A stretch of DNA of 38,210 nucleotides from an uncultured Lachnospiraceae bacterium (GTDB taxonomy: Bacteria; Bacillota; Clostridia; Lachnospirales; Lachnospiraceae). This document shows, piece after piece, positions 1,588 to 37,941 of this stretch (its first letter is position 1; each line of letters starts with the position of its first letter). The position numbers and the translations under genes were made by a program. The stretch lies in the NCBI GenBank assembly GCA_944384125.1, contig CALWSF010000030.1, positions 1 through 38,210 of the forward strand. The letters are read 5' to 3'. The notes beneath the pieces were generated by a model. That model was not told the origin of the DNA, did no database searches, and worked only from the letters and a program-made list of their open reading frames with translations.

Positions 1588-2556
1588 ATGAGGAAAAAGG
1601 AAATTTACTTTAATGAACTGCTTTTAGCGTGGCTGGAGGAGAAGCGCCCGGGGCATGCGCCGTCTACTTATGTGAAATACCGGAGAATGTCCGGAAGGTA
1701 TATTATGCCGTATTTTTCCGGGATACTTCTGGATGAGGTAAATACCTGTGTGCTCAGCCGGTACAGGGAGCATATTTTAAATGCCGGAGATGAGCGTTCA
1801 CTGTCCGAAGGGAGTGTGCGGTGTCTCCTGATGATAGTTAATGCCGTTATGGAGCAGGCATTTGAGCGCCGGCTGATACCGGAGGCTATCCGGATTCCTC
1901 CGCGGATCAGGAAGAGGAAGCACATTGTTCAGGTGTATTCCAGTGAAGAACAGAGGCGCCTGGAAGCATACATAAAGGAACATACGGATATTTCCACCGT
2001 TTCAATTTATCTCTGTCTCTATACAGGACTGCGTCTGGGGGAGATATGTGCGCTGCGATGGGAGAGTATAAATACGGAGGAGGGCTATATACATGTAAAA
2101 CACACCGTGCAGCGGCTCGCCGTGGCGGAGGCCCCCGGGGGGAAGACAGGAGAGAAAAAAGGGGGAAAGTCAGAGCTTTTGCTTACAGAACCCAAAAGCA
2201 GTTCATCGAACAGGCTTGTGCCGGTACCGTCTTTTATTATTCCCATGCTGCAGTGTTATAAAGACAGATCACAGCCCTCTGATTTTATTCTGTCGGGAAA
2301 CCCGAAGATGCCCATGGAGCCCAGAACCTTTCAGTATCAGTACAAGCGCTGTCTTGCGCGGGCCGGTATCCGGTATCTGAATTTTCATTCTCTGCGCCAT
2401 ACGTTTGCCACCCGGTGTATAACAATCGGGATGGACCCCAAAACTCTCAGCGAGATTCTGGGGCATTCGGATATAAAAATCACGCTGGATTATTATTTCC
2501 ATTCTTCTTTTGAATTTAAAAAAAACCAGATGGAACGTCTGGCGGCCATCTCGTAG
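1588..2556 (+). CDS. Tyrosine recombinase / site-specific integrase
   Basis: The 322-residue protein has a SAM-like core-binding domain (about residues 5-105) and a tyrosine-recombinase catalytic domain. The catalytic residues are visible: the first Arg in TGLRLGEICALRW, HSLRHTFATR (HxxR), LGHSDIKITL, and the nucleophile Tyr in LDYYFHSS, aligned on the second Tyr. It cuts and rejoins DNA at specific short sites through a covalent tyrosine intermediate. GAGGAGG lies just before ATG 1588. No excisionase, transposase or phage gene is next to it, so it is not obviously part of an integrated element. A 13-bp inverted repeat lies 86 bp downstream of the stop, just before the polyamine promoter. It could be a relic of an element or act locally on an invertible site. 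Confidence 0.9.
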   Translation: MRKKEIYFNELLLAWLEEKRPGHAPSTYVKYRRMSGRYIMPYFSGILLDEVNTCVLSRYREHILNAGDERSLSEGSVRCLLMIVNAVMEQAFERRLIPEAIRIPPRIRKRKHIVQVYSSEEQRRLEAYIKEHTDISTVSIYLCLYTGLRLGEICALRWESINTEEGYIHVKHTVQRLAVAEAPGGKTGEKKGGKSELLLTEPKSSSSNRLVPVPSFIIPMLQCYKDRSQPSDFILSGNPKMPMEPRTFQYQYKRCLARAGIRYLNFHSLRHTFATRCITIGMDPKTLSEILGHSDIKITLDYYFHSSFEFKKNQMERLAAIS

Positions 2557-2740: not shown

Positions 2741-2769
2741 TTGACATTTTTGCGAAAAAAATGTATGAT
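2741..2769 (+). promoter_or_regulatory. Consensus sigma-A promoter of polyamine leader/operon
   Basis: TTGACA (2741-2746) and TATGAT (2764-2769) are separated by exactly 17 bp. Transcription should start near 2776, at the foot of the first hairpin of the leader. No other convincing promoter lies between here and speD, so this one probably serves the whole operon. Confidence 0.85.
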
Positions 2770-2775
2770 ACCACC

Positions 2776-3155
2776 GACATGGAAAATCATGTGCAGTTTG
2801 TGAGTCCTCCATGCAAATATTTTAGACCACCCGCCCTGCGGGTAAAGGCCATACGGACAGCCAGGTCAGATGCCGATTGGCAGCATTAAGCTGCCCTATT
2901 GATTGAGTTAAAAGCTCAAATTTTATAAGTTGGTTACTTTATAACCGGTGCTGTCAGGCACATCAACTTGTGAAACGGTCAATAAGAGTGGTAAAAGTAA
3001 GATATTTGCTATATAGACTCTGAAATCTCCATAATTTTCCAATATGGGCGTGTAAATCCCTGTGCGGCGTGTAAGACGGATCGAATGCCGGGATTTTATG
3101 GAAAACAGATTAATTGATGCATGCGAGTGATGTGGAGACACATTGCTCTTTTTTT
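2776..3155 (+). ncRNA. Long structured leader or stand-alone RNA before speD
   Basis: About 380 nt between a consensus promoter and an intrinsic terminator, with no credible reading frame. Helices read by eye: 2777-2781/2788-2792; a three-way junction closed by GACC 2825-2828/GGTC 2864-2867 that holds hairpins 2829-2834/2838-2843 and 2847-2849/2860-2862; GGCAGC 2879-2884/GCTGCC 2890-2895; 2903-2908/2914-2919; a second junction closed by AAGTTG 2927-2932/CAACTT 2964-2969; CCATA/TATGG around 3029-3047; AAATCC 3054-3059/GGATTT 3091-3096 continuing into CGGCGT 3065-3070/ATGCCG 3085-3090. Two terminal loops carry ACGGAC (2853-2858) and ACGGAT (3076-3081). A possible closing helix is CATGCA 2810-2815/TGCATG 3118-3123. 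It is not a riboswitch class I recognise. It could be a metabolite-sensing attenuator for the polyamine operon or a separate small RNA. Confidence 0.7.
3125..3155 (+). terminator. Intrinsic terminator 50 nt before speD
   Basis: GAGTGATGTG (3125-3134), a GAGA loop, CACATTGCTC (3139-3148) and seven T (3149-3155) form a 10-bp stem with two G-U pairs. Its 5' arm (TGATGTG, 3128-3134) is exactly complementary to CACATCA at 2959-2965 inside the leader, a possible antiterminator pairing. Its position right before the operon is that of an attenuator. Confidence 0.85.
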
Positions 3156-3205: not shown

Positions 3206-3973
3206 ATGGATCAGAATCAGAAGTTAAGATTATACGGATTTAACAACTTGACAAAGGCGCTCAGTTTCAATATTTATGATGTCTGTTATGCAAAGACGCC
3301 CAGAGAGCAGCGGGATTATATAGCTTATATTGATCAGCAGTATAACTCGGAACGTCTGACAGGAATTCTGACGACTCTGACGGACATGATAGGTGCAAAG
3401 GTTCTCAATATCTCCCAGCAGGATTATGAGCCTCAGGGAGCATCGGTAACGCTTCTGATTGCGGAGGGGTCAATGATTCCTGTTTCCGGTGAGACAAAGG
3501 TGGCACACCTGGATAAGAGTCATGTGACGGTGCATACATACCCGGAGTACCATCCGGAAACGTGTCTTGCCACATTCCGGGTTGATATTGATGTGGCGAC
3601 CTGCGGGGAAATCACACCTCTGTCCACGCTGGATTATCTGATTGGATCCTTTGACTCTGATATTATCACAATGGATTACCGGGTAAGGGGATTTACCCGG
3701 GACATGGACGGAAAGAAGCTTTTTATGGATCACAGGATTCGCTCCATTCAGGATTATATCGCCGAGGAGACGCTGCAGCGTTATGATGTGGTGGATATCA
3801 ATGTGTACGGAGCAAATCTTTTTCATACAAAGATGATGGTAAAGGATATCGATCTGCAGAATTATCTTTTCAAAACGGATGTCTATGAACTTCCGCCCCG
3901 GACGCGCCTGAGTATCATGGACAGTCTCCGGCGGGAGATGATCGAGATTTTCAGCGGAAGAAACGTATTCTGA
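3206..3973 (+). CDS. speD: S-adenosylmethionine decarboxylase proenzyme
   Basis: A 255-residue pyruvoyl enzyme that decarboxylates S-adenosylmethionine to supply the aminopropyl donor for spermidine synthesis. The self-cleavage motif [14 protein letters not shown] is clear, with the Lys104-Ser105 bond cut so that Ser105 becomes the pyruvoyl group. This is the E. coli-type class with a long N-terminal beta chain. The reading frame extends upstream to 3143, but that stretch is the leader terminator. ATG 3206, preceded by GGAGAAGGGG at 3191-3200, gives the normal N-terminus. It is the first gene of the polyamine operon and sits directly behind a structured leader and terminator, so its expression is probably attenuated. 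Confidence 0.94.
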
Positions 3974-4046: not shown

Positions 4047-5513
4047 ATGATTACGCAGACAGGCAGGGATGCACTCTCACAGGAAAGAGCTCCGATTTAT
4101 GAGGCGCTGGAGAGGTTTCAGAAAATGCGGGTTGTCCCCTTTGATGTGCCGGGACACAAGAGAGGCAGGGGAAATCCGGAGCTGACGGCTCTTCTGGGGG
4201 AGACCTGTATGCGGCTGGATGTGAACTCCATGAAGCCTCTTGACAATCTCTGCCATCCGGTGTCAGTTATAGCCGATGCGGAACATCTTGCGGCGGAGGC
4301 ATTCGGGGCGGCTCACGCCTTTCTGATGGTGGGCGGTACCACATCGGCAGTTCAGAGCATGGTTCTGACTGTGGTAAAGAGGGGAGAGAAGATTATTCTT
4401 CCCAGAAATGTTCACCGGAGTGTCATGGGGGCCATGGTACTCTGCGGTGCGGTGCCGGTCTATGTGAATCCGGCCGGAGATGAGCGCCTCGGCATTCCGC
4501 TGGGAATGCGGGTGGAGGATGTGAAAAAAGCCATAGAGGAGAATCCGGACGCAAAGGCGATTCTTGTGAATAATCCTACATATTACGGAATCTGTTCGGA
4601 TCTGCGCTCTATTGTCAGACTGGCTCATGAGCACGGAATGCTGTGTCTGGCGGATGAAGCTCACGGCACCCATTTTTACTTCGGGGAGAATCTTCCGGTT
4701 TCCGCAATGGCAGCCGGCGCCGATATGGCGGCCGTTTCCATGCACAAATCAGGCGGGAGTCTGACGCAGAGTTCCATCCTGCTTACCGGCCCGGCCATGT
4801 CAGCCGGCTATGTGCGCCAGGTAATCAATCTGACCCAGACGACAAGCGCATCCTATCTTCTTCTGTCCAGTCTTGACATATCCAGGCGGAACCTGGCGCT
4901 GCGCGGGCGGGAAGCCTTTGCCCAGGTGGTGCGGATGGCGGAATATGCCAGGGAGGAGATTAACCGGATCGGCGGCTATTACGCCTATGCGGGGGAACTT
5001 ATCAACGGGGACAGCATTTTTGATTTCGATGTGACGAAACTCTCGATTCATACCCGGGATATCGGTCTGGCGGGGATTGAGGTTTATGATCTTCTCCGGG
5101 ACGAGTACGATATCCAGGTGGAGTTCGGCGATCTGGGAAATATTCTGGCCTATCTCTCTATTGGAGACAGGCAGAGAGAGCTGGAGCGGCTCGTGAGCTC
5201 TCTCTCTGAGATACGCAGGCGTTTTGCCAGAGACAAATCAAGTCTGATGGATTATGATTATATTGATCCCATTGTTGTGCTTTCGCCTCAGGAGGCATTT
5301 TATGCTGAGAAGGAATCCCTCCCCATCCGGGAGACGGCAGGGCGGATATGCAGTGAATTTGTCATGTGCTACCCGCCGGGAATTCCCATTCTGACGCCGG
5401 GAGAGCAGATCACAGAAGAGATTATTGATTATATTGAATATGCGAAGGAAAAGGGATGTTCCATGACAGGTCCGGAGGATCCCGGGATTGAGTATCTTAA
5501 TGTGCTGGCATAA
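4047..5513 (+). CDS. speA: Arginine/ornithine/lysine decarboxylase, PLP fold type I
   Basis: The 488-residue protein is the short form of the Orn/Lys/Arg decarboxylase family, close in length to Bacillus SpeA (about 490) and lacking the N-terminal wing domain of the E. coli inducible enzymes. The PLP-binding lysine is K234 in SMHKSGGSL; D203 in LADEAHG should hold the pyridine nitrogen. FDVPGHKRG near residue 32 is a family signature. Members decarboxylate arginine, lysine or ornithine, and the substrate cannot be read from these motifs. The agmatinase-family gene two genes downstream favours arginine to agmatine. AGGAGGT lies 9 nt before ATG 4047. Second gene of the operon, 73 bp after speD. 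Confidence 0.88.
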   Translation: MITQTGRDALSQERAPIYEALERFQKMRVVPFDVPGHKRGRGNPELTALLGETCMRLDVNSMKPLDNLCHPVSVIADAEHLAAEAFGAAHAFLMVGGTTSAVQSMVLTVVKRGEKIILPRNVHRSVMGAMVLCGAVPVYVNPAGDERLGIPLGMRVEDVKKAIEENPDAKAILVNNPTYYGICSDLRSIVRLAHEHGMLCLADEAHGTHFYFGENLPVSAMAAGADMAAVSMHKSGGSLTQSSILLTGPAMSAGYVRQVINLTQTTSASYLLLSSLDISRRNLALRGREAFAQVVRMAEYAREEINRIGGYYAYAGELINGDSIFDFDVTKLSIHTRDIGLAGIEVYDLLRDEYDIQVEFGDLGNILAYLSIGDRQRELERLVSSLSEIRRRFARDKSSLMDYDYIDPIVVLSPQEAFYAEKESLPIRETAGRICSEFVMCYPPGIPILTPGEQITEEIIDYIEYAKEKGCSMTGPEDPGIEYLNVLA

Positions 5514-5532: not shown

Positions 5533-6393
5533 ATGAATTTCTGGTTTTCGGAAAACCACACGCCGAACGTGAAGATTTCCATTCGCGTCGACCGTCAGCT
5601 TTACAGCGGAAAAAGTGAATTTCAGCGGATTGATGTGTTTGACTCGCCGGAGTTCGGACGATTCCTCACGCTGGACGGATATATGATGCTTACAGAGAAG
5701 GATGAGTTCATCTATCACGAGATGATTACCCATGTGCCCATGGCGGTCCATCCCCAGGTAAGGCAGGTTCTCGTCATCGGGGCGGGAGACGGAGGCGTGA
5801 TCCGTGAGCTGACCCGGTATCCGGACATTGAGCATATAGATATGGTGGAGATTGACCCTTTAGTTGTGGAGGTGTGCAGAAAATATCTTCCCAAGACTGC
5901 CTGCCGTCTGGACGACGAGCGCCTCACTATCCACTATGAGGACGGGCTTAAATTTATCCGCTCCTGCGAAAATCAGTATGATCTGATTATCGTGGATTCC
6001 ACGGATCCCTTCGGGCCGGGAGAGGGACTTTTTACAAGAGAATTTTACGGCAACTGTTTCAAAGCCCTCCGGGAGGACGGCATCATGGTCAATCAGCACG
6101 AGAGTCCTTTTTATCCGGAGGATGCGGAGGCGTGCAAGCGGGCTCACAAGCGCATTGTGGAGTCCTTTCCCATAAGCCGCGTATATCAGGCCCACATTCC
6201 CACATATCCGTCGGGACACTGGCTTTTCGGCTTTGCCTCTAAAAAATACCATCCGTTAAAGGATTTAAAGGAGACAAAATGGAATATGCGGGGGCTTACC
6301 TGCCGCTATTATACGACCACACTTCACAAGGGCGCGTTCTATCTGCCCGCTTACGTAGAGGAGATGTTAGTAGATGTTGAAGGCAAATATTGA
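5533..6393 (+). CDS. speE: Spermidine synthase family aminopropyltransferase
   Basis: A 286-residue spermidine-synthase-fold protein that moves the aminopropyl group from decarboxylated SAM to an amine. Visible features are the N-terminal beta domain (LYSGKSEFQRIDVFDS), the nucleotide-binding motif VLVIGAGDGGVIRE followed by MVEIDPLVVEV, and the catalytic region IIVDSTDPFGPGEGLF. The classical acceptor is putrescine. With the decarboxylase and the ureohydrolase in the same operon, agmatine is also possible, giving aminopropylagmatine. AAAGGAG precedes ATG 5533. Its last 20 nt overlap the next gene, so the two are probably translationally coupled. Confidence 0.93.
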   Translation: MNFWFSENHTPNVKISIRVDRQLYSGKSEFQRIDVFDSPEFGRFLTLDGYMMLTEKDEFIYHEMITHVPMAVHPQVRQVLVIGAGDGGVIRELTRYPDIEHIDMVEIDPLVVEVCRKYLPKTACRLDDERLTIHYEDGLKFIRSCENQYDLIIVDSTDPFGPGEGLFTREFYGNCFKALREDGIMVNQHESPFYPEDAEACKRAHKRIVESFPISRVYQAHIPTYPSGHWLFGFASKKYHPLKDLKETKWNMRGLTCRYYTTTLHKGAFYLPAYVEEMLVDVEGKY

Positions 6394-7243
6394 GACTTTT
6401 CTGGGCTGTGAGGCTGCGTATGAGGAGGCGGATATCGTCCTCTACGGAGCGCCCTTTGATTCCACCACATCCTACCGCCCCGGAGCCAGGTTCGGTTCCC
6501 GGGCTATCCGTTCCGAGTCCTACGGTCTTGAGACCTATTCGCCATATCAGGATTTTGATCTGGCCGACTGCTGCGTGTTTGACGCCGGCGATCAGGAGCT
6601 GTGCTTCGGAGATGTGTCTCTGGCATTAAAGGATCTGGAGGAGAGAGCGTCGGAGATTTTGTCGGACGGAAAGCTCCCCTTCCTTTTAGGCGGAGAACAT
6701 CTTGTAACGCTGGCGGCCGTCCGCGCAGCTGTAAAAAAATATCCGGATCTGGCCATTATTCATTTCGACGCCCACACGGATCTGAGGGATGATTATCTGG
6801 GGGCAAAGCTCTCCCACGCCTGCGTGATCCGGCGCTGCTGGGAGCTTCTGGGAGACGGACGGATTTTCCAGTTCGGCATCCGCTCCGGCGACAGGGAAGA
6901 ATGGCGTTGGGGAAAGGAACATGTGACGACAAATCCTTTCGTTATTGACCCGGAAGTGCTGTCTGAAACTCTTCGCCGGCTGGAGGGACGCCCTGTGTAT
7001 TTTACTCTTGATCTGGATGTGATGGATCCGGGCGTATTTCCGGGAACGGGGACACCGGAGCCGGGCGGCGTAAGCTTTGATGATCTCAGGAAGGCGGCTG
7101 TCGCGGTCTGCAGCCGGGCGAATATTGTGGGCTGCGATGTCAATGAGCTTGCTCCGGGGCTTGATGCCTCCGGGATTTCCACAGCGGCGGCCTGCAAGAT
7201 TGTGCGGGAGATGCTTCTGGCGCTTTCAAAAAACAACATTTAA
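6374..7243 (+). CDS. speB: Agmatinase-family ureohydrolase
   Basis: A 289-residue arginase/agmatinase-family manganese enzyme. All expected metal ligands are present: H109 in GGEHL, D132/H134/D136 in FDAHTD, and D213/D215 in TLDLDVMDP. It hydrolyses a guanidino group to release urea. Agmatine to putrescine is the textbook reaction; in organisms that add the aminopropyl group first, the same family converts N1-aminopropylagmatine to spermidine. The start ATG 6374 lies inside the end of speE (20-nt overlap), behind GAGGAG at about 6360. The operon position between speE and the dehydrogenase fits either substrate. Confidence 0.9.
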   Translation: MLKANIETFLGCEAAYEEADIVLYGAPFDSTTSYRPGARFGSRAIRSESYGLETYSPYQDFDLADCCVFDAGDQELCFGDVSLALKDLEERASEILSDGKLPFLLGGEHLVTLAAVRAAVKKYPDLAIIHFDAHTDLRDDYLGAKLSHACVIRRCWELLGDGRIFQFGIRSGDREEWRWGKEHVTTNPFVIDPEVLSETLRRLEGRPVYFTLDLDVMDPGVFPGTGTPEPGGVSFDDLRKAAVAVCSRANIVGCDVNELAPGLDASGISTAAACKIVREMLLALSKNNI

Positions 7244-7341: not shown

Positions 7342-8550
7342 ATGAATATGGGAAGAGCATTGATTATCGGCTGCGGCGGCGTGGCCTCGGTAGCGATTCA
7401 CAAATGCTGCCAGAACAGTGATGTTTTTGAGGAGATCTGCATTGCCAGCCGGACGAAATCCAAGTGTGATGCGCTGAAGGAAAAGCTGGAAGGTAAGACG
7501 AAGACAAAAATTCAGACGGCTCAGGTAAATGCCGATCATGTAGATGAGCTTATCGCCCTGATTGAGAGCTTTAAGCCGGATGTGGTTTTAAATCTGGCGC
7601 TTCCGTATCAGGATCTTACCATCATGGACGCCTGTCTGGCCACGAAGACCCACTATATCGATACAGCCAATTATGAGCCGGAAGATACGGCCAAATTTGA
7701 GTATAAATGGCAGTGGGCGTACCGGGAGAAATTTAAGGAGGCGGGCATCACAGCTCTTCTGGGAAGCGGTTTTGATCCGGGAGTAACAGGTGTGTTTTCC
7801 GCTTACGCGCTGAAGCATGAATTTGACGAGATCAATTATATCGACATTCTTGACTGCAACGGAGGCGATCACGGCTACCCGTTTGCTACCAACTTCAATC
7901 CCGAGATTAATATCCGGGAGGTTTCCGCCAAAGGATCCTACTGGGAGGACGGACACTGGGTTGAGACGGAGCCCATGGAAATCAAGAGAGTTTACAATTT
8001 TGAGGGCGTGGGGGAGAAGGATATGTATCTCCTTCATCATGAGGAGATTGAGTCTCTGGCGCTCAATATTCCGGGCATTAAGAGAATCCGCTTTTTCATG
8101 ACCTTCGGTCAGAGCTATCTGACCCACTTAAAATGCCTGGAAAATGTGGGGATGACTTCCATTGAGCCCATCATGTATGAAGGAAAAGAGATCGTGCCGC
8201 TGCAGTTTCTCAAGGCCGTGCTTCCCGATCCGGCATCCCTTGGCCCGAGAACAGTGGGAAAGACAAACATCGGATGCATCTTCCGCGGTAAGAAGGACGG
8301 AAAGGAAAAGAATTATTATCTTTACAATATCTGCGATCATCAGGAATGCTACCGGGAGGTGGGCTCTCAGGCGATCTCCTACACGACAGGCGTGCCGGCC
8401 ATGATCGGGGCAATGCTGGTTATGAACGGGACGTGGCAGAAGCCGGGCGTTTACAACATTGAGGAGTTTGATCCGGATCCCTTTATGGATGCGCTGAACC
8501 GCTTCGGTCTCCCATGGAAGGAATCATGGGAACCGGCGCTGGTTGACTGA
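7342..8550 (+). CDS. Carboxy(nor)spermidine dehydrogenase family protein
   Basis: A 402-residue saccharopine-dehydrogenase-family protein. It begins with a Rossmann NAD(P) site (ALIIGCGGVASVAIHKC) and has the family motifs LNLALPYQDLTIMDACL and GFDPGVTGVFSAYAL. In polyamine clusters this family condenses L-aspartate-beta-semialdehyde with an amine and reduces the imine: putrescine gives carboxyspermidine, diaminopropane gives carboxynorspermidine, and agmatine gives carboxyaminopropylagmatine in the more recently described route. The neighbouring decarboxylase and ureohydrolase support a polyamine role over lysine metabolism. The 98-bp gap before it is the second largest in the operon. GGAGGAAG precedes the start at 7342. 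Confidence 0.88.
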   Translation: MNMGRALIIGCGGVASVAIHKCCQNSDVFEEICIASRTKSKCDALKEKLEGKTKTKIQTAQVNADHVDELIALIESFKPDVVLNLALPYQDLTIMDACLATKTHYIDTANYEPEDTAKFEYKWQWAYREKFKEAGITALLGSGFDPGVTGVFSAYALKHEFDEINYIDILDCNGGDHGYPFATNFNPEINIREVSAKGSYWEDGHWVETEPMEIKRVYNFEGVGEKDMYLLHHEEIESLALNIPGIKRIRFFMTFGQSYLTHLKCLENVGMTSIEPIMYEGKEIVPLQFLKAVLPDPASLGPRTVGKTNIGCIFRGKKDGKEKNYYLYNICDHQECYREVGSQAISYTTGVPAMIGAMLVMNGTWQKPGVYNIEEFDPDPFMDALNRFGLPWKESWEPALVD

Positions 8551-8573: not shown

Positions 8574-9767
8574 ATGATGCAGGAGAAAGAGACAGAGGGA
8601 AAAACGGCGGAAAAAATCATTGAGGCAACAGGCGGGCTCAGAACGCCTTTCTATCTGGTGGATGAGACGCTCTTAAAAAGAAACCTGGAAATACTCCGGG
8701 ATGTGGCTGACCGCGCCGGCTGCCGGATCCTGCTGGCGCAGAAGGCATTTTCCATGTTTCATACCTATCCTCTCATCCGGAAATATCTGGATGGAACGGC
8801 GGCCAGCGGTCTTTACGAGGCAAGGCTGGGGCATGAGGAGTTCGGAAAAGAAACACATGTGTTTTCGGCAGCTTACCGGGAAGATGAGTTTGATGCGCTT
8901 TTACAGTATTCGGATCACATTGTGTTCAATACACCGTCCCAGGTAAGAAAATACGGGGATAAGGTAAGAGCAGCCGGGAAAGAGGCGGGACTGCGCCTGA
9001 ATCCTGAGTGCTCCACGCAGGAGGGGCACGCCATCTACGACCCCTGCGCTCCCGGTTCGAGGATGGGGACGACCCTGCAGGCCCTGGGCCGGGCGGGCGA
9101 TTTTGAGAGGGAGATTCTTCCGTATCTCTCAGGGTTTCATTTTCACACTCTCTGTGAGCAGAATTCTGACGATCTGGAGACGACCGCCACAGCAGTGGAA
9201 GAAAAATTCGGCGGTTATCTGGGACGGGTAAAGTGGCTCAATCTGGGAGGCGGACATCATATCACACGGGATGATTACGACAGAGACAGGCTCATCCGCA
9301 TTGTCCGCAGACTCAGAGAAAAATACGGTGTGGAAGTTTATCTGGAACCGGGAGAGGCCGTTGTTTTAAATGCGGGATTTCTTGTAACCTCGGTTCTGGA
9401 GACTATGGAAAACGGGATGGAGATTGCTATTCTGGACACATCGGCGGCATGTCATATGCCGGATGTGCTGGAGATGCCGTACCGGCCGCCCCTTTTAGGA
9501 AGCGGAAAGCCGGGAGAAAAGAGATATACCTTCCGTCTGGGCGGTCCCACCTGTCTGTCAGGGGACTGTGTGGGGGATTATTCCTTTGACGAACCCCTCA
9601 CGCCGGGAAAAAGGCTTGTGTTCGGGGACATGGCGCTCTATACAATGGTAAAAAATAACACCTTCAATGGCATGCCGCTTCCGTCCATTGTTTTGAGAAG
9701 AGAGGACGGGCAGAACGAGACTGTACGGGAATTTGGATATGAAGATTTTAAAGGCCGGCTCTCATAA
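8574..9767 (+). CDS. nspC: Carboxy(nor)spermidine decarboxylase
   Basis: A 397-residue alanine-racemase-fold (fold type III) PLP decarboxylase. The PLP lysine is K57 in ILLAQKAFSM. Other family features are GSRMGTT, GFHFHTLCEQ, LNLGGGHHI, the phosphate-binding LEPGEAVV and the C-terminal GPTCLSGD segment that carries the active-site cysteine. It removes the carboxyl group left by the upstream dehydrogenase, giving spermidine, norspermidine or aminopropylagmatine according to the amine used. ATG 8574 is 8 nt after AGGAAG; ATG 8577 is also possible. It is the last gene of the operon. A GC-rich hairpin (GGCCGGCT 9753-9760/AGCCGGCC 9767-9774) spans the stop codon but lacks a T run. Confidence 0.9.
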   Translation: MMQEKETEGKTAEKIIEATGGLRTPFYLVDETLLKRNLEILRDVADRAGCRILLAQKAFSMFHTYPLIRKYLDGTAASGLYEARLGHEEFGKETHVFSAAYREDEFDALLQYSDHIVFNTPSQVRKYGDKVRAAGKEAGLRLNPECSTQEGHAIYDPCAPGSRMGTTLQALGRAGDFEREILPYLSGFHFHTLCEQNSDDLETTATAVEEKFGGYLGRVKWLNLGGGHHITRDDYDRDRLIRIVRRLREKYGVEVYLEPGEAVVLNAGFLVTSVLETMENGMEIAILDTSAACHMPDVLEMPYRPPLLGSGKPGEKRYTFRLGGPTCLSGDCVGDYSFDEPLTPGKRLVFGDMALYTMVKNNTFNGMPLPSIVLRREDGQNETVREFGYEDFKGRLS

Positions 9768-26902: not shown

Positions 26903-27139
26903 ATCAAAAAAGCATATTTGTAATTCCTGGGATGCTCGATAACTCTTACTTTTTTTGAACCTACATTTTGACAAAAGGGATTCCAATATTTTTAAGCGGA
27001 TGTCATGCCTCCTTCGAGTGGAAGGCAGAAGTTTAAGTGAGGTTGCCCACCTAGCAGGGCTAGGCGTCAATACTGTAAGAGCCGGCATTTTGGGGTTACA
27101 AAGGATAAAAAGCAGCGAGAAATCGCTGCTTTATCTTTT
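26903..27139 (+). ncRNA. ssrS: 6S RNA
   Basis: About 235 nt between a consensus promoter and an intrinsic terminator. The two ends form a long closing stem: TTTGTAATTCC plus GGGATGC (26917-26935, one bulged T) with GCATTTT plus GGGGTTACAAA (27085-27102). The 5' CCTGGGATGCTCG and 3' GGCATTTTGGGG sequences resemble the ends of known 6S RNAs. A large unpaired centre and a terminal hairpin (near 27007-27030, GCC...GGAAGGC) complete the open-bubble shape that mimics melted promoter DNA and binds the housekeeping RNA polymerase. An 86-codon frame across it (26955-27215, TTG start) is not believed to be a gene. Confidence 0.82.
27109..27139 (+). terminator. Terminator of 6S RNA
   Basis: AAAGCAGCGA (27109-27118), GAAA tetraloop, TCGCTGCTTT (27123-27132), then ATCTTTT. 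Confidence 0.9.
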
Positions 27140-37678: not shown

Positions 37679-37941
37679 AAAAAAATCCCAGATGCAGCAA
37701 AATGCATCTGGGACGAATCGTTAAATCCGCGGTACCACCCATGTTGACCAAAGGTCCTCTCTGTCATATACTAACATATATGCCGCCGGATAACGGACGC
37801 GGTCTCCGTCAGCCCATACTGCAGTTCAGGGCTGCCCTCAAAAGTCCATTCAACTATCTGCTCCATATCGTGTTTCCACCCTCCACGACTCTCTGTGATT
37901 TTGCCTGATAGCCTACTCCTCTTTCTCATCGGTTTTACTTT
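37679..37941 (-). promoter_or_regulatory. T-box riboswitch, Trp specifier (UGG)
   Basis: The minus strand carries a full T-box leader. Stem I features are GAGTAGGC, AGAGAG and GGGTGGAAAC. The specifier context GAATGGACTTTTGAG places UGG at 37848-37846. The T-box GGGTGGTACCGCGG (37740-37727) forms the antiterminator that holds uncharged tRNA 3' ends. The terminator TCCCAGATGCA/TGCATCTGGGA (37713-37703/37696-37686) ends in seven U. When tRNA-Trp is uncharged the leader should read through and switch on the ABC operon about 110 nt downstream. A 68-codon plus-strand frame at 37702-37908 is only its complement. Confidence 0.95.

Follow-up and report, generated by a model that had tools for sequence, protein, structure and literature searches.

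What is the stretch of about 380 nucleotides that stands between a promoter and a polyamine operon in the DNA of an uncultured Lachnospiraceae bacterium, and to what does it respond? In the window, meaning the whole stretch of 38,210 nucleotides analysed, an earlier note had taken positions 2776-3155 for an undescribed structured RNA, most naturally an attenuator that senses a polyamine, SAM or decarboxylated SAM (dcSAM). On comparative sequence evidence we consider it probable that the region encodes a cis-acting, riboswitch-type transcription attenuator, through which a plentiful end product, most likely spermidine, would stop polyamine synthesis or import. The structured attenuator is well supported, and its ligand is read from gene context.

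Comparison with Rfam by Infernal, proposed at the time as a check, gave a match to RF02440 (SpF59 sRNA, or ldcC RNA) at 2824-2876, scoring 62.5 bits in cmscan with an E-value of 4.6e-9, where the gathering score is 37.2, and no match to a housekeeping RNA. RF02440 has 54 positions, is of Rfam type 'Gene; sRNA', and is listed as a Streptococcus sRNA; the matched region is one module of an RNA of about 240 nt, 2778-3021. The word undescribed therefore goes too far and is right only in part, since RF02440 covers 2824-2876 and a pneumococcal RNA, SN20/F59, is on record. Between 2500 and 3400, Rfam matches up to E 1 comprised only RF02440 and a sub-threshold miRNA model. A SAM riboswitch was rejected, no SAM family matching by gathering score or up to E 1, as was a housekeeping RNA or T-box; the leader has no Rfam match to T-box, 6S, SRP, tmRNA or RNase P RNA, none of which the earlier note had recognised either. 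A scan of the whole window returned three Rfam matches, RF02440 among them. A T-box leader (RF00230, 120.2 bits) is found at 37706-37938 on the reverse strand and a 6S RNA (RF00013, 75 bits) at 26921-27100 on the forward strand.

The name SpF59 appears to trace to pneumococcal F59, which a list in PMC3395615 places between SP0915 and SP0916 and equates with SN20. A table in PMC2887815 gives SN20 as a 318-nt pneumococcal transcript between the same two genes, with a promoter/transcription start site and a Rho-independent terminator and with no Rfam prediction, and SP_0916 is an arginine decarboxylase according to the title of PMC7531197. No functional description of the RNA was found in the literature searched, a scope that leaves aside most subscription papers and all preprints. 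Within it, SpF59 occurs only in two unrelated listings, RF02440 and related phrases nowhere, and 'ldcC riboswitch' only in the paper on a SAM-I variant discussed below; the terms sought are absent from the main texts of a pneumococcal transcriptome paper from 2018 and of the D39 annotation paper.

Relatives were gathered by RNA sequence alone and not by genes: each species, represented by a single genome, was scanned for an exact match to the 15-mer core, and genomes of the same family were searched with RF02440. The tally of 15-mer matches is a lower bound and not a census. At least 148 loci were collected, and 83 among the matches listed passed a motif filter, some of those excluded being chance 15-mer matches. 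Sequence conservation among the filtered relatives reaches far beyond RF02440. A covariance model, R1, with 213 positions and 54 pairs, was built from 28 sequences and used to search the relatives (99 sources, part of the collected loci). Within the window's family, searching with R1 reveals the RNA in 71 of 299 genomes, compared with 50 of 299 for RF02440; in genomes of the same phylum it finds 25 of 398, from 19 of 267 genera. The family of genome G478 has it in 7 of 25 genomes and that of genome G364 in 30 of 118. Frequent in the window's family and in that of G364, the RNA accompanies genes of synthesis as well as of import. Among its named carriers are Paenibacillus, Bacillus, Neobacillus, Acidaminococcus, Phascolarctobacterium, Blautia, Flavonifractor and Gemmiger. 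A diverged copy (L097), with no scanned terminator, stands before speD in a bin labelled Spirochaetes, through either transfer or a binning error.

Comparative evidence supports a predicted fold of ten helices, with three-way junctions P5-P6-P7 and P7-P8-P9 and an additional crossing helix of 5 bp (Table 1), in keeping with the eight or more stems and two three-way junctions described earlier. A folding energy of -117 kcal/mol (z -3.83) is computed for 2776-3155, and none of 100 dinucleotide shuffles was equally stable. Alignment A1, with 28 of 58 candidate sequences aligned by MAFFT only, has standard pairs in 92.7% of 1459 cells; with partners slid by 1-3 columns the figure never exceeds 43.1%, and none of 500 shuffles reaches any of five measures. 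Alignment A2, with 91 sequences, shows 94.2% pairing and changes on both sides at 39 of 54 pairs, values biased towards the model since the alignment was fitted to R1. The helices thus covary among relatives, although alignment rows are akin to each other, so that such counts do not represent independent events. P5 and the greater part of P7 hardly vary, and the case for them rests on pairing, not covariation. P0 is supported by a comparison of own-partner with swapped duplexes in 90 of 91 relatives, with z -10.1 and 0 of 20000 permutations.

All five pairs of the crossing helix AGAGU/ACUCU occur in 106 of 136 aligned rows. This putative helix is preferred on its presence; it seldom varies, and its covariation support is thin. 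Another candidate pseudoknot, between GAGTC in the P0 loop and a 3' GACTC, was rejected, as no more than 41 of 90 relatives contain the GAGT motif. Inspection by eye had also suggested that the motif recurs at about 3061-3096; this idea was dropped, the 28 relatives compared showing no such second copy. Many positions outside helices are invariant across the 28 sequences, from Paenibacillus to gut Clostridia.

Table 1. Features of the leader RNA and the operon behind it, in window positions.
Feature	Position	Strand	Evidence or remark
Leader promoter, TTGACA-17-TATGAT	2741-2769	+	11 of 12 consensus positions
P0, 5' hairpin (2778-2783 with 2808-2813)	2778-2813	+	own-partner duplex test; G2813 common to P2
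Conserved aptamer-like RNA, R1 match	2807-3021	+	228.8 bits, E 1.8e-60; window sequence among the 28 model-building sequences
P2, 5' strand (partner 3001-3009)	2813-2821	+	comparative alignments
RF02440 module: P3 (2825-2828 with 2864-2867), P3a (2829-2843), GGCCAUACGGACAGCC strand	2824-2876	+	Rfam match
P4 hairpin	2879-2895	+	comparative alignments
P5 (2897-2904 with 2977-2984), closes three-way junction	2897-2984	+	99% of cells paired, little variation
P6 hairpin	2905-2917	+	both sides change at 4 of 4 pairs
P7 (2924-2931 with 2965-2972), closes second three-way junction	2924-2972	+	comparative alignments
P8	2932-2946	+	within second three-way junction
P9	2948-2961	+	weakest helix, 70% of cells paired
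Predicted antiterminator strand, overlaps 3' strands of P9 and P7	2959-2970	+	pairs with 3124-3134
AGAGU, 5' strand of putative crossing helix (pseudoknot with P2)	2985-2989	+	pairs with 3017-3021
P2, 3' strand (partner 2813-2821)	3001-3009	+	comparative alignments
ACUCU, 3' strand of putative crossing helix	3017-3021	+	pairs with 2985-2989
Expression-platform linker, non-conserved	3022-3123	+	sequence varies among 28 relatives
Intrinsic terminator, stem 3125-3148 and T run	3124-3155	+	5' arm is the antiterminator partner
speD, S-adenosylmethionine decarboxylase	3206-3973	+	Pfam and NCBIfam
Orn/Lys/Arg decarboxylase, family-level	4047-5513	+	Pfam; under cut-offs of the NCBIfam models listed
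speE, spermidine synthase	5533-6393	+	Pfam, NCBIfam
speB, agmatinase	6374-7243	+	Pfam, NCBIfam
Saccharopine-dehydrogenase family, probable carboxy(nor)spermidine dehydrogenase (LYS9-type)	7342-8550	+	Pfam; best NCBIfam NF043000, below cut-off
nspC, carboxynorspermidine decarboxylase	8574-9767	+	NCBIfam above cut-off

The consensus promoter and the intrinsic terminator that had been reported at the two ends of the leader are both present. Of 90 relatives, 67 carry a promoter-like site at the position of this promoter; shuffled sequences gave 10.2 (sd 2.7). The terminator, said to lie about 50 nt before speD, ends 51 nt ahead of the gene's start at 3206, and a simple sigma-70 scan reveals no separate promoter between 3155 and 3206. 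On its upstream side the leader is adjoined by a gene for a Phage_integrase-family tyrosine recombinase (Pfam; window 1588-2556, forward strand). Farther upstream, at 239-802 on the same strand, lies an ORF that looks, on inspection by eye, like one for an ECF-type sigma factor; the ORF next to it downstream has a membrane-anchor-like start.

A loop strand, CACATCA (2959-2965), had been seen as the exact complement of TGATGTG (3128-3134) in the 5' arm of the terminator, giving an on/off switch. These positions are right, and the pairing extends to 11 bp, with 2959-2965 and 2967-2970 opposite 3124-3134 and A2966 bulged. Since the 3' strands of P9 and P7 share nucleotides with 2959-2970, the sequence allows either the folded aptamer together with the terminator or the antiterminator, the two states being mutually exclusive.

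The on/off pairing was examined by swapping partners among members, taking as the aptamer strand the one ending in CTTGTG. A scan found a terminator downstream in 69 of 83 members, giving 68 distinct strand/terminator pairs, and own partners (-13.0 kcal/mol) beat swapped ones (-11.2 kcal/mol), with z -6.9 and 0 of 20000 permutations. The own terminator has a median rank of 15 of 68 and reaches the top tenth in 15 of the 68 cases; ranks this modest would be expected if much of the arm were common to members. Fourteen of the 83 have no usable pair (seven lack the CTTGTGAAA anchor, two lie near a contig end and five have no scanned terminator), and in L008 and L094 at least, a terminator-like hairpin is visible by eye despite the failure of the scan. 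For held-out members found later, with one repeat dropped (L151, which equals L052), 36 of 44 were used, and own partners again come out ahead (z -3.2, 16 of 20000). Seven of 45 in the held-out set lack a usable pair, and the terminator chosen for at least one member (L215) appears to sit in the wrong place.

With polymerase at 3136, the antiterminator fold is calculated at -99.7 kcal/mol and the consensus aptamer at -96.2, a gap of 3.5 that counts neither pseudoknot nor ligand; the unconstrained minimum of -105.3 kcal/mol lies below both switch states. Since a third fold beats both and the gap is small, simple energetics are compatible with ligand control and are not proof of it. At the level of sequence, aptamer and expression platform exclude each other, as is required of a riboswitch.

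Genes downstream were surveyed at 151 places matched by R1, comprising 147 distinct RNAs, five of them unreadable at contig ends. Names for these genes came from BLASTP comparison with the proteins of the window and one PotA; small intervening genes may be present. A polyamine gene starts within 600 nt on the same strand for 139 of the 142 RNAs with readable downstream sequence. The first recognised genes among the 142 were an Orn/Lys/Arg decarboxylase (59), speD (43), a LYS9-type dehydrogenase (27) and potA (10); all ten PotA proteins score above the TIGR01187 cut-off, and eight above that of the spermidine/putrescine equivalog NF043075. Every one of the 24 loci found through R1 only (L150-L173, with L151 repeating L052) leads into polyamine genes. 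The three exceptions are L137, which stands before a Peptidase_M28 gene, and two duplicate copies at L218, before an acetyltransferase-like ORF with speD next. A tandem riboswitch at L218, considered for its two R1 matches, was rejected in favour of a direct repeat, about 390 nt long, which takes in the beginning of the following gene. By eye, this repeat region (L218:226-1002, forward strand, approximate) holds the RNA, a terminator-like hairpin and the start of the acetyltransferase-like ORF, with speD following; it is either a recent duplication or an assembly artefact.

The carboxy(nor)spermidine route, by way of a saccharopine-dehydrogenase-type enzyme, is not known to use SAM. The common thread of the operons would seem to be spermidine supply, through two synthetic routes and import. 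SAM and dcSAM are disfavoured as ligands because 27 of the 142 RNAs lead into a saccharopine-dehydrogenase-type gene of the non-SAM route and 10 into potA. The attenuator originally suggested thus survives as a structured attenuator of polyamine operons, on the evidence of covariation, co-evolution and gene linkage, and gene context favours a polyamine among the ligands then put forward.

The RNA also occurs in reduced forms. By eye, the RF02440 module is missing or unrecognisable in some relatives that keep P0, P2 and P5-P6-P7 (L203-L207, for example), and by a loose motif test its core is absent from 23 of 147 RNAs. In others, such as L213, L216 and L219, it is the 3' module that has been lost. 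The diverged L170 and L171 retain little of the 5' half and no RF02440 module, and still stand before speD (L170:1501-1602); the terminator arm of L171 is complementary to the CTTG strand. Twenty chosen regions, mostly missed by RF02440, were examined, and 19 have a recognised polyamine gene downstream. Rfam gathering scores recognise none of 20 loci that lack the RF02440 module or are far diverged from it (18 of the chosen regions, plus L170 and L171), and RF02440 matches six of six ordinary members.

In the mechanism we propose, the leader would be transcribed from its own promoter and its aptamer-like domain of about 240 nt would fold. The pathway's final product, most likely spermidine, would when plentiful bind and stabilise this domain directly; 2959-2970 would then be held in P7/P9, letting the terminator (3125-3155) form and stopping transcription before speD. 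When ligand is scarce, 2959-2970 would instead pair with 3124-3134, no terminator would form and the operon would be transcribed. A cis attenuator of this same kind might read a different pathway ligand (putrescine, agmatine, cadaverine, MTA or a longer polyamine) or act as an ON switch, given that spermidine is indicated solely by gene context and that 59 of 142 readable RNAs have a decarboxylase as their first recognised gene. We hold this to be unlikely: SAM, dcSAM and MTA are not known to link LYS9-type and potA operons, putrescine would be an odd repressor of its consumers speD or nspC, and the exclusion between P7/P9 and the antiterminator fits an OFF switch. The size and sequence invariance of the RNA would also suit a protein site, and the reader could then be a repressor-type RNA-binding protein instead of a small molecule. 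The many invariant internal positions and the multi-helix junction would be typical of aptamers, however, which makes a protein reader a distinctly doubtful prospect.

The earlier note had offered a free small RNA as its alternative, and such a trans-acting RNA, with the terminated transcript as its product, would agree with the Rfam type and with the listing of SN20/F59 as an sRNA in the sources cited. Synteny disfavours it, since 139 of 142 readable copies keep the same strand and lie no more than 600 nt from a polyamine gene, and the terminator 5' arm co-evolves with the aptamer strand, which a free sRNA would not need; we judge it very improbable. Ribosome-mediated attenuation through a leader peptide could draw on an ATG-started frame of about 36 codons seen by eye near the 5' end of the window RNA. 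Yet among 91 relatives, counting Shine-Dalgarno-preceded ORFs only, no frame is conserved: 69 have no such closed ORF in the RNA, and the ORFs of the remainder share no common length, the shortest having 3 codons and the longest 71. We rejected this explanation as scarcely credible. A ligand-responsive attenuator in cis, if validated, would explain the steadiness of polyamines in many Firmicutes and would turn an Rfam sRNA into an annotated module of a cis-regulator.

Measured by what is generally expected of riboswitches, the RNA has a structured, covarying aptamer-like domain and a cis position before the genes of one pathway. With RF02440 it shares the match at 2824-2876, above the gathering threshold. 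The Rfam entry, however, describes a 54-nt Streptococcus sRNA typed as an independent gene, whereas the window RNA spans about 240 nt, not counting its expression platform, is spread over many Firmicutes families, lacks the module in some forms and, by its synteny and switch co-evolution, points to action in cis. SN20/F59 is similar in being a 318-nt transcript with promoter and terminator, lying between SP0915 and SP0916, and RF02440 bears its name; the listings of it report only a small RNA, and its homology to the window RNA beyond RF02440 is presumed. The spermidine riboswitch that is a SAM-I variant (Salvail et al. 2023, PMC10853860) likewise precedes polyamine genes, namely ldcC, speE, speB and speD, and is described in that paper as an OFF switch acting through an intrinsic terminator. 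The window RNA may well work in a like manner, by analogy, and is not a member of that class, having no SAM match up to E 1; the SAM-I variant has a four-stem SAM-I fold, with 13 representatives aligned in the paper, and the architecture here is another. Polyamine riboswitches were long sought, and the same paper calls its class, the single one so far described, rare and expects more classes. We lean slightly towards regarding the present RNA as a second class of natural riboswitch for spermidine (polyamine), with a fold that bears no relation to that of the SAM-I variant and with a much wider distribution. It would control two synthesis routes and import (potA) and would be composed of separable modules round the P5-P6-P7 junction, with some forms unseen by Rfam and with RF02440 as one module mislabelled as a streptococcal sRNA.
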